Source of the DNA: an uncultured bacterium
Lineage (GTDB): Bacteria; CALINM01
Direction: 5' to 3'
DNA length: 7,623 nucleotides
NCBI GenBank assembly: GCA_938045315.1
Contig: CALINM010000039.1
Span: 1-7,623, forward strand
A program made the position numbers and the translations under genes. Below, one piece after another: positions 2,162-4,903 of the stretch. The notes beneath the pieces are model-generated. The model was not told the origin of the DNA and did no database searches. It saw nothing but the letters and a program-made list of their open reading frames with translations. Positions within the stretch are counted from its first letter, which is position 1. Every line of letters starts with the position of its first letter.

Positions 2162-3214
2162 ATGGCACAACTAAATTTACCAAAAAAAGTAGTTTTGGGG
2201 GATATTACAGTAAGGGATGGTTTTCAACATGAGGAAAAGTTTATCCCCACTGAAGCAAAGATATGGTTGGCGGAGGAGCTAATCCTTGCTGGGTTTAAAA
2301 GGATTGAGGTTACAAACTTTGGTAATCCAAAAGGTATGCCCCAATTTAAAGATGCTGAAGCTGTTCTAAAGGGCATTAGAAACAGTAAAAGAGTAGCACA
2401 CCTTTTGAAAGATGTGGAGATAACTGCAGTTACTATAAGAGAGCAGGCAGTAGCGAGGGCTATTCAGGCAAAAAAAGAAGGTTGGGGGCCCGATAGGATA
2501 TTACAAATGGTTTCAACAAGTGAATCTCATCAGTTAAAAAACTCTGGGCTTACTCATAAAGAATACTGGGCTATGACTGAAAAATGTATTAAAGAAGCAA
2601 AAGAAGTGGGCCTCAAATTTAATGGAACTGTGAGTACCATATGGGGTTGTCCTATAGAAGGGCCGACGGAGATGAAAAAAGCGGTAGAATTTGCGAAAAG
2701 GTATTTAAGCATTGGTGCAGATGATATTGAGCATGCAGATCATGATGGTCAGGCAACGCCAGCGAAAGTTTATGAGTATTTTTCAATGGTCCTCGATGAA
2801 ATTCCTGATCCTTCAAAGCACATTGCTCATTTCCATGTAACTCGTGGTTGGGGACTTGCGAATGTATTCGCTGCTCTTTTAGCTGGAATCACTCACTATG
2901 AATCTACGTGTGGCGGTATTGGTGGTCAACCTGCAAATTTTGTTGATGGTGTTCCTGTCTCAGGGACTGGGGAATATTACTATAAGGATCCTAACATAAC
3001 AGGTCTTGTATGTACTGAAGATATGGTTGTAATGATGGATGAAATGGGAATTGAAACTGGTATTGATGTTGATAGACTTCTTAAGATAGGTAATATGGTA
3101 GAAAAAATAGTGGGAAGAAGATTAAGGTCGGAATGTATAAAAACAGGTAGAATTCCGAAAGGTCCAACAGAATTCCTTGATGAAAAACTCAAAGCGAAAC
3201 TCTCCTCAAAGTAA
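2162..3214 (+). CDS. DRE-TIM metallolyase family protein, HMG-CoA-lyase-like, lacking the catalytic Cys
   Basis: 350 residues, a TIM-barrel enzyme of the HMGL-like / pyruvate carboxyltransferase superfamily, whose members make or break C-C bonds next to a carbonyl using a divalent metal. Near the N-terminus is Gly-Asp-Ile-Thr-Val-Arg-Asp-Gly (13-20), the DRE-type signature, with Arg18 and Asp19 matching Arg41-Asp42 of human HMG-CoA lyase. Ile-Glu-Val-Thr-Asn (48-52) fits strand 2. His223-Phe-His225 matches the metal-binding His-x-His. The glycine loop Gly-Gly-Ile-Gly-Gly (251-255) is followed by Gln256 where HMG-CoA lyases have the catalytic Cys266. The metal-ligand Asn of the next loop (human Asn275) appears to be Leu282, before Thr-Glu-Asp. 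Classical HMG-CoA lyase activity is therefore doubtful; a lyase or aldolase on another acyl-CoA or 2-oxo acid is an inference. The start is fixed by the Shine-Dalgarno at 2148-2159. It appears monocistronic, ending at an intrinsic terminator. Confidence 0.88.
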   Translation: MAQLNLPKKVVLGDITVRDGFQHEEKFIPTEAKIWLAEELILAGFKRIEVTNFGNPKGMPQFKDAEAVLKGIRNSKRVAHLLKDVEITAVTIREQAVARAIQAKKEGWGPDRILQMVSTSESHQLKNSGLTHKEYWAMTEKCIKEAKEVGLKFNGTVSTIWGCPIEGPTEMKKAVEFAKRYLSIGADDIEHADHDGQATPAKVYEYFSMVLDEIPDPSKHIAHFHVTRGWGLANVFAALLAGITHYESTCGGIGGQPANFVDGVPVSGTGEYYYKDPNITGLVCTEDMVVMMDEMGIETGIDVDRLLKIGNMVEKIVGRRLRSECIKTGRIPKGPTEFLDEKLKAKLSSK

Positions 3215-3217
3215 AAA

Positions 3218-3247
3218 GGGAGGGGATTTATACCCCTCCTGCTTTTT
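3218..3247 (+). terminator. Rho-independent terminator after the lyase-like gene
   Basis: GGAGGGG (3219-3225) pairs with CCCCTCC (3233-3239) around a 7-base loop; a G-U pair at 3218/3240 extends the stem. A T5 run follows at 3243-3247. It begins three bases after the stop codon. The A5 run before the stem could give weaker activity on the opposite strand. Confidence 0.9.
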
Positions 3248-3286
3248 GATTTATAATTAAGCATAAATTAGCAAAAAACTGAATTG

Positions 3287-3301
3287 TGCAAATATTTTGC
3301 A
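3287..3301. repeat. Small palindrome TGCAAA-TAT-TTTGCA
   Basis: Perfect 6-bp arms around a 3-bp centre, lying between the terminator and the decayed amidotransferase gene. It might be a remnant operator of that gene. It is short enough to be chance. Confidence 0.25.
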
Positions 3302-3355
3302 TTTTTTGTTTAAATGTTTAGTGTTTATAGACATATTATTTGCACTATTGATAAT

Positions 3356-4024
3356 ATGTTCTATGTGATTCCACATCTTGAAGAAGAAGGATCTGGACCA
3401 TTTAGTTGTTATCTTCCTTGAGAAGTAAAGACTATTATGGTCTCAAAAAATGCCTTTCTAAAAGTAAAAAAAGGGTGATGCCAATTTAATTGTGCGTGGA
3501 TCCCTGGGAGTTTATGAAAAAAATAGTTATTCCTTTATAAATTAGAGCTTAATTTTATCAAAAGGTATCTTAATTAGAGTGTCAAAATGTTGAGAATCTA
3601 TTTAGGATCTCAGATAATAGCTTATGCTTTAGGAAGAAGAGTATTTAAAGGTCATAAGAAAGAAATAGGGTAGTTTGAAATTACACATAAAGAAGAGGTA
3701 AAAATAATTTGCTTTTTGGTATATATGTTTAAAAAATGAAAGTATTTCCATGGCATAAGAATACTTTCGAGTTACCAAAAGGATCGGTTTGACTGTCGGG
3801 AAATCAAAATTAAATAAATCAGGCTTTTAAGTAGGGCACAACATTTATGGATTATAATATCATTTAGAAGTTACAGAAGAAATTTTAATTCAATGATGTC
3901 CCCGTATAGCACATAAAAGTTATTTATTGATACCAAAAACCTTTCTATTTTAAAATCGCTGGCGGAGAAGGTTTTTAAAAATTTCTTTCCCTATCAAATA
4001 TTATCAGAAAAATTTCTTTTGTAA
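3356..4024 (+). pseudogene. Decayed class-I (type 1) glutamine amidotransferase gene
   Basis: Recognisable pieces of one class-I glutamine amidotransferase (GMP-synthase-like GATase fold, normally ~230-240 residues) occur in the right order in all three + frames. From 3356: Val-Ile-Pro-His-Leu-Glu-Glu-Glu-Gly-Ser-Gly. From 3474: Gly-Asp, Leu-Ile-Val-Arg-Gly, Gly-Val-Tyr-Glu-Lys. From 3590: Tyr-Leu-Gly-Ser-Gln-Ile-Ile-Ala-Tyr-Ala-Leu-Gly, then Lys-Gly-His-Lys-Lys-Glu-Ile-Gly. From 3736: Val-Phe-Pro-Trp-His-Lys-Asn-Thr-Phe-Glu-Leu-Pro-Lys-Gly-Ser-Val. From 3837: Asn-Ile-Tyr-Gly-Leu, then His-Leu-Glu-Val-Thr-Glu-Glu (3861 on), holding the catalytic His-x-Glu. From 3929: the C-terminal helix Leu-Ala-Glu-Lys-Val-Phe-Lys-Asn-Phe. 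In-frame stops lie at 3419, 3543, 3575, 3671 (replacing the Trp expected after Lys-Glu-Ile-Gly), 3790, 3811, 3855 (replacing the Gln of Leu-Gln-Phe-His) and 3914. Frame changes occur near 3470, 3540, 3735, 3825 and 3893. The nucleophile Cys is Tyr (TAT at 3599-3601). Not functional. The last ~35 bp to the stop at 4022 may be non-homologous. Confidence 0.85.
3935..3976 (-). terminator. Possible weak terminator of the korAB operon
   Basis: AAAAACCTT (3935-3943) and AAGGTTTTT (3968-3976) form a 9-bp inverted repeat with a 24-base loop, about 70-110 bp downstream of the korB stop on the minus strand. The stem has few G-C pairs and the loop is long, so termination would be inefficient. It lies inside the 3' end of the decayed amidotransferase gene and may be a coincidence of that sequence. 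Confidence 0.3.
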
Positions 4025-4042
4025 TACTAAAGCTCTCCTAAA

Positions 4043-4903
4043 TCAAGCCAATAAATCATCAATTATATCTTCAATACTAATATTCTCGATGTCATCTTCT
4101 GAAAGTGGGTTTTCACCCAGCTCAATACACGCCTGTTCGTAAGTTTCTCGCTCTGTTTTATAAAAAATTCCTATTGGTATTTTATCATTGAATTCCATAG
4201 CTAATTTTATGGCATTTTCATAATCTTGTGGATTGTGAGCGGTATCCTCTAATTTATATACCCTTGGGTTATAAAAAGCGTATGAATATGAAGGATTAAA
4301 AGTAACACAGGGCTGAAGTACATCAATTACAGAAAAGCCTTTATGCTTCATACCCTGAACAATTAAAGATGCAAGGTGATCAATTTCACCAGAGTATCCC
4401 CTTGCAACAAAGGTAGCGCCAGAAATTATAGCTAAAGCCACAGGATTAACTGGCAATTCAATCACCCCAAAGGGTGTTGATTTTGAAGAAAATCCCTTAG
4501 GACTTGTAGGTGAGGTTTGACCTGTGGTAAGTCCATATACTCTGTTATCGTGTATTATATAAGTTATGTCTATATTTCTTCTACAGGTATGTATAAAATG
4601 ACCAAGACCAATTCCAAGTCCATCTCCATCACCTGAGGTTGCTAAAACATTCAGCTTATGATTAGCCAGTTTTATACCCGTTGCAACAGGTAGTGTTCTG
4701 CCATGAATACTGTGAAAGCCATAAACTTTTAAAAAATTACTTAAATTACCAGAACATCCAATTCCAAAGACCATTGTGATATCATGATTATTTAAACCCA
4801 GTTCATGAAAAGCATTTTTCAGAGCATACCAGATGCCAAAATTACCACAGCCTGGACACCATGAGGGTGTTTGATAGGTATTATAAACAGGATAATCTTT
4901 CAT
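4043..4903 (-). CDS. korB: 2-oxoacid:ferredoxin oxidoreductase, beta subunit (KorB-type)
   Basis: The thiamine-pyrophosphate and Fe-S subunit of a CoA-acylating 2-oxoacid:ferredoxin oxidoreductase: 2-oxo acid + CoA + oxidised ferredoxin to acyl-CoA + CO2 + reduced ferredoxin. It is reversible and cytoplasmic. 286 residues, full length. Trp-Cys16-Pro-Gly-Cys19-Gly-Asn, Gly-Ile-Gly-Cys50-Ser-Gly and Pro-Cys199 supply the four ligands of one [4Fe-4S] cluster. The TPP/Mg motif is Gly91-Asp-Gly-Asp-Gly, completed by Asp119-Asn120 and the following Tyr-Gly-Leu-Thr-Thr-Gly-Gln-Thr-Ser-Pro-Thr-Ser. Tyr-Gly-Phe-His-Ser-Ile-His-Gly-Arg (61-69) is typical of the Kor branch. AAAGGAGGT ends seven bases before the ATG and lies within the end of korA; only four bases separate the two genes, so they are co-translated. 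2-oxoglutarate is the usual substrate of this two-subunit type, but related enzymes take other 2-oxo acids, so the substrate is not settled. Confidence 0.93.
   Translation of the reverse strand: MKDYPVYNTYQTPSWCPGCGNFGIWYALKNAFHELGLNNHDITMVFGIGCSGNLSNFLKVYGFHSIHGRTLPVATGIKLANHKLNVLATSGDGDGLGIGLGHFIHTCRRNIDITYIIHDNRVYGLTTGQTSPTSPKGFSSKSTPFGVIELPVNPVALAIISGATFVARGYSGEIDHLASLIVQGMKHKGFSVIDVLQPCVTFNPSYSYAFYNPRVYKLEDTAHNPQDYENAIKLAMEFNDKIPIGIFYKTERETYEQACIELGENPLSEDDIENISIEDIIDDLLA

Follow-up and report, generated by a model that had tools for sequence, protein, structure and literature searches.

Genes and features at the locus

The window, which is the whole 7,623-bp stretch of DNA analysed here (contig CALINM010000039.1), contains an intact gene for an HMG-CoA-lyase-like protein and an intact korB gene, and between the stop codon of the former and the latter lies a gap (Table 1). 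No ORF of 60 or more amino acids was found at 3265–4042, in agreement with the first-pass annotation, according to which ORF callers would leave the region blank; the one exception in the gap is a 94-residue frame on the strand opposite to the lyase gene, antisense to its end. A strong terminator-like hairpin separates the lyase gene from the segment that follows, which is almost certainly a decayed class-I glutamine amidotransferase (GATase) gene, an old unitary pseudogene.

Table 1. Coordinates of the gap, its flanking genes and the lesions assigned to the GATase relic.
Feature	Position	Strand	Basis or remark
HMG-CoA-lyase-like gene, intact	2162..3214	+	locus marker common with SKW305, 94% identical
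Terminator-like hairpin, interval between lyase gene and pseudogene	3218..3240		both strands scored
Class-I GATase pseudogene (as interpreted)	3350..3987	+	about residues 4–213 of the 215-aa P0001; tblastn, frameshift alignment, stitched translation
Catalytic Cys codon, now TAT (Tyr)	3599..3601	+	corresponds to Cys86 of P0001 (GICLG, invariant)
TAG stop at invariant Trp110 (EIGW)	3671..3673	+	alignment to P0001 and outgroups
TAA stop at invariant Gln172 (GLQ.H)	3855..3857	+	alignment to P0001 and outgroups
TGA stop at Trp185	3894..3896	+	frameshift-tolerant alignment
Other in-frame stops	3419, 3575, 3730, 3790, 3811	+	frameshift-tolerant alignment
About five frameshifting indels	3476..3903; near 3476 (or 3441), 3540, 3690, 3830, 3903 (3926 in the protein-level alignment)	+	two alignments
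korB, 2-oxoacid:ferredoxin oxidoreductase beta subunit, intact	4043..4903	-	other flank of the gap

The locus was compared with that of a genome of the same family, SKW305 (G002; JAOAGA010000046.1, publicly entered as the MAG "Proteobacteria bacterium isolate SKW305"). The order there is kinase, sigma-54 regulator, korA, korB, the lyase gene on the opposite strand, an intact GATase gene divergent from the lyase gene, and miaB. Read in the same way, the window shows regulator, korA, korB, GATase relic and lyase gene, the last two on one strand. The neighbourhood is common to both genomes, and within it the lyase and GATase genes have exchanged places and changed their relative orientation. An intact copy between the lyase-like gene and korB had been suggested as something to look for in close relatives; the intact copy was found in SKW305, where it is divergent from the lyase gene and adjoins it on the side away from korB. 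A second genome (G001), from the same genus as the window genome, was uninformative for this comparison, since its korB match ends at the contig end, which leaves the absence uncertain, and neither the lyase gene nor the GATase was detectable.

The lyase-like protein is 93–94% identical to its SKW305 counterpart, the korA protein 67% and the korB protein 78%. In both genomes a palindrome-like element directly precedes the lyase ribosome-binding site, TTTAACGTAAACTGTAAA at 2130–2155 of the window and TTTACGTTAACTGTAAA in SKW305 (L029), which is perhaps an operator. An inverted repeat, GTGCAAATA ... TATTTGCAC, occupies 3286–3345, upstream of the original start of the relic, and TTGCAAATATT recurs upstream of the intact SKW305 GATase gene; these are perhaps a leftover control site.

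A second gene remnant was observed at 1635–1931 on the minus strand, corresponding to the C-terminal 99 residues of an OB-like, probably secreted protein of about 205 residues; intact copies of this protein occur in G001 (L034, where it likewise adjoins mtaB) and in SKW305 (L035). The remnant has neither the N-terminal half nor a proper start, and the rest is stop-free and 70% identical to the G001 protein. The 5' half was not recovered above shuffles in 1932–2161 (score 44 versus a shuffle maximum of 53). The lyase gene may have come to lie beside the remnant through a rearrangement whose breakpoint is the site of truncation.

Homology of the gap to an intact GATase

The DNA search of related genomes gave one convincing match to the gap, in SKW305, with 71% identity over 201 bp (E 1.7e-20). 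It falls inside an intact ORF of 215 amino acids (P0001), a class-I GATase that matched PF00117 with an E value of 5.1e-21 and PRK07053 (NF005458) with an E value of 1.2e-53. The SKW305 record was also the only match in a scan of genome contigs, no relative was found among viral contigs, and literature searches gave nothing specific.

When P0001 was compared with the window by tblastn, three matches with internal stops were obtained, at 3350–3703 (E 9e-19), 3414–3887 (E 1e-7) and 3697–3834 (E 1e-6). A frameshift-tolerant alignment, akin to the check proposed in the first-pass annotation, gave a score of 394 over residues 5–213 of P0001, with 97 of 212 positions identical. The same procedure applied to 200 dinucleotide shuffles gave a mean of 38 and a maximum of 62; the opposite strand scored 31, and the window outside the gap at most 58. 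The homologous blocks lie in order on the plus strand and pass through all three frames, as had been described from the letters alone. The span then assigned, 3356–4024, does contain GATase homology, but this starts slightly earlier and stops at about 3987 rather than at 4024.

The profile PF00117 missed the site when run on the raw sequence of the window genome, whereas the stitched translation of the relic, with X at stops, scored 26.5 bits against a curated cut-off of 22.8 (E 6.1e-6) and matched the PRK07053 GATase with an E value of 6.7e-27. Since stitching was guided by P0001, these values are a consistency check and not independent evidence, and the Pfam test foreseen at first pass succeeded on the stitched translation only. 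It was therefore the close relative, and not the family profile, that revealed the relic.

Lesions, signs of relaxed constraint and alternative explanations

From the frameshift-tolerant and protein-level alignments the relic was found to carry some eight stops in frame and some five frameshifting indels, the exact site of three or four of them varying with the alignment. The stop at 3419 is an extra codon in the alignment, that at 3575 is sited differently by the two alignments, and two additional stops, at 3459 and 3465, are contingent on the placement of the first frameshift. The earlier estimate of at least ten stop or frameshift lesions holds, and the coordinates given for the changes of the nucleophile Cys, of Trp110 and of Gln172 proved exact on comparison with P0001 and four intact outgroup proteins, in all of which these three columns are invariant. 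With a single close intact relative, individual DNA changes are unpolarised, and the codons of the ancestor are a reconstruction.

The catalytic Cys of the G-x-C-x-G motif has been replaced, and the codons for His174 and Glu176 (H-x-E) are still present at 3861 and 3867, downstream of stops. The relic is predicted to yield no working enzyme now. By a hand count it retains about 29 of the 40 columns that are invariant among the intact proteins, which indicates that it was once a constrained protein.

Divergence from SKW305 at codon positions 1, 2 and 3 was 0.374, 0.271 and 0.554 for the relic, as compared with 0.264, 0.169 and 0.559 for korA, 0.178, 0.105 and 0.538 for korB, and 0.072, 0.023 and 0.547 for the lyase gene. 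The raised values at positions 1 and 2, from a comparison of two sequences, are suggestive of relaxed constraint in the relic. Since position 3 is alike in the relic and its neighbours (about 0.55), the relic is not simply older; its positions 1 and 2 appear to have lost protection. That they remain below the level of position 3 is expected with selection on the SKW305 branch and early on the window branch. The lyase-like protein is under unusually strong constraint, position 3 of its gene being as diverged as that of the neighbours. The G+C content of the relic is 0.295, that of most intact neighbours 0.30–0.40 and that of intergenic DNA about 0.20.

The genome is a fragmented draft of 244 contigs, and sequencing or assembly errors in a GATase gene that is intact in the organism might be invoked. 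This explanation is very improbable: about a dozen lesions fall within 640 bp and none in the adjacent frames of 1,053, 861 and 1,713 bp, the substitutions are raised at codon positions 1 and 2, invariant residues have been replaced, and errors would not spare all but one gene. The first-pass preference for old inactivation over sequencing error is upheld on these grounds.

It is just as improbable that the relic has been kept in a secondary role, for example as a transcribed leader, an antisense RNA or a spacer that regulates korBA or gives rise to an RNA in the interval between korBA and the lyase gene. The relic has not been deleted and promoter-like matches are present, but these are about as numerous as expected by chance, with no significant excess; an Rfam search of the segment gave nothing, and the upstream 186 bp had no DNA-level match in G001 or SKW305. 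A chance resemblance to a GATase in a non-coding RNA or regulatory DNA element, which would suit the lack of both an ORF and an Rfam match, is already refuted by the alignment, given a protein similarity far above shuffles, ordered across nearly the whole protein, and a relative whose corresponding locus has the gene intact; its likelihood is negligible.

The decayed GATase gene proposed at first pass for the seemingly empty gap was thus borne out by tblastn, by the frameshift-tolerant alignment and by the intact copy in SKW305. Ancestry within the class-I GATases follows from domain-wide sequence homology, and pseudogene status from several disabling lesions relative to the intact homologue. 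The assignment is established by the intact homologue adjoining the lyase gene, the ordered homology with a dozen lesions, the loss of the catalytic Cys and the intact neighbours.

Apparent loss of the enzyme and comparison with known systems

A search of the window genome with P0001 gave one other match, a 523-residue frame with 32% identity that is probably GMP synthase; other GATase matches were only distantly similar to the P0001 subfamily, and no second member was found in the assembly, a draft about 92% complete. Since the neighbours are intact and no other subfamily member was found, the enzyme appears to have been lost from the organism, with the reservation that such a draft could omit an intact copy. 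The ancestor would have been a stand-alone class-I GATase of about 215 residues, of the PRK07053-like or TM1158-like group, encoded next to korBA and the gene for the lyase-like protein. Along the window lineage the enzyme would no longer have been needed, and nonsense, frameshift and missense changes, among them the loss of the catalytic Cys, would then have accumulated. The loss was presumably neutral or tolerated and would have occurred in the window lineage once this had separated from that of SKW305.

The case puts one more gene loss on record, from a lineage that has been sparsely sampled, and leaves the understanding of the enzyme family unchanged. It also illustrates that relics can escape ORF lists and family profiles and yet be clear once a single close relative is available.

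P0001 is a clear homologue of the PRK07053-like proteins and of PF00117, both of which the stitched relic also matches. Its score lies below the equivalog cut-off of NF005458 (182 versus 250 bits), which makes it a relative and not the named equivalog, and the window copy differs from these families in being broken and without the nucleophile. The best solved homologue of P0001 is TM1158 of Thermotoga maritima (PDB 1o1y; E 4.9e-39), which shares the IGWY and FQWH blocks with P0001 and differs in being intact and from a distant organism. The relic is an ordinary unitary pseudogene, a common kind of thing: like other bacterial unitary pseudogenes it combines many nonsense and frameshift lesions, a once-constrained gene, no second copy found and intact neighbours, and its only notable difference from them is the local change in gene order.
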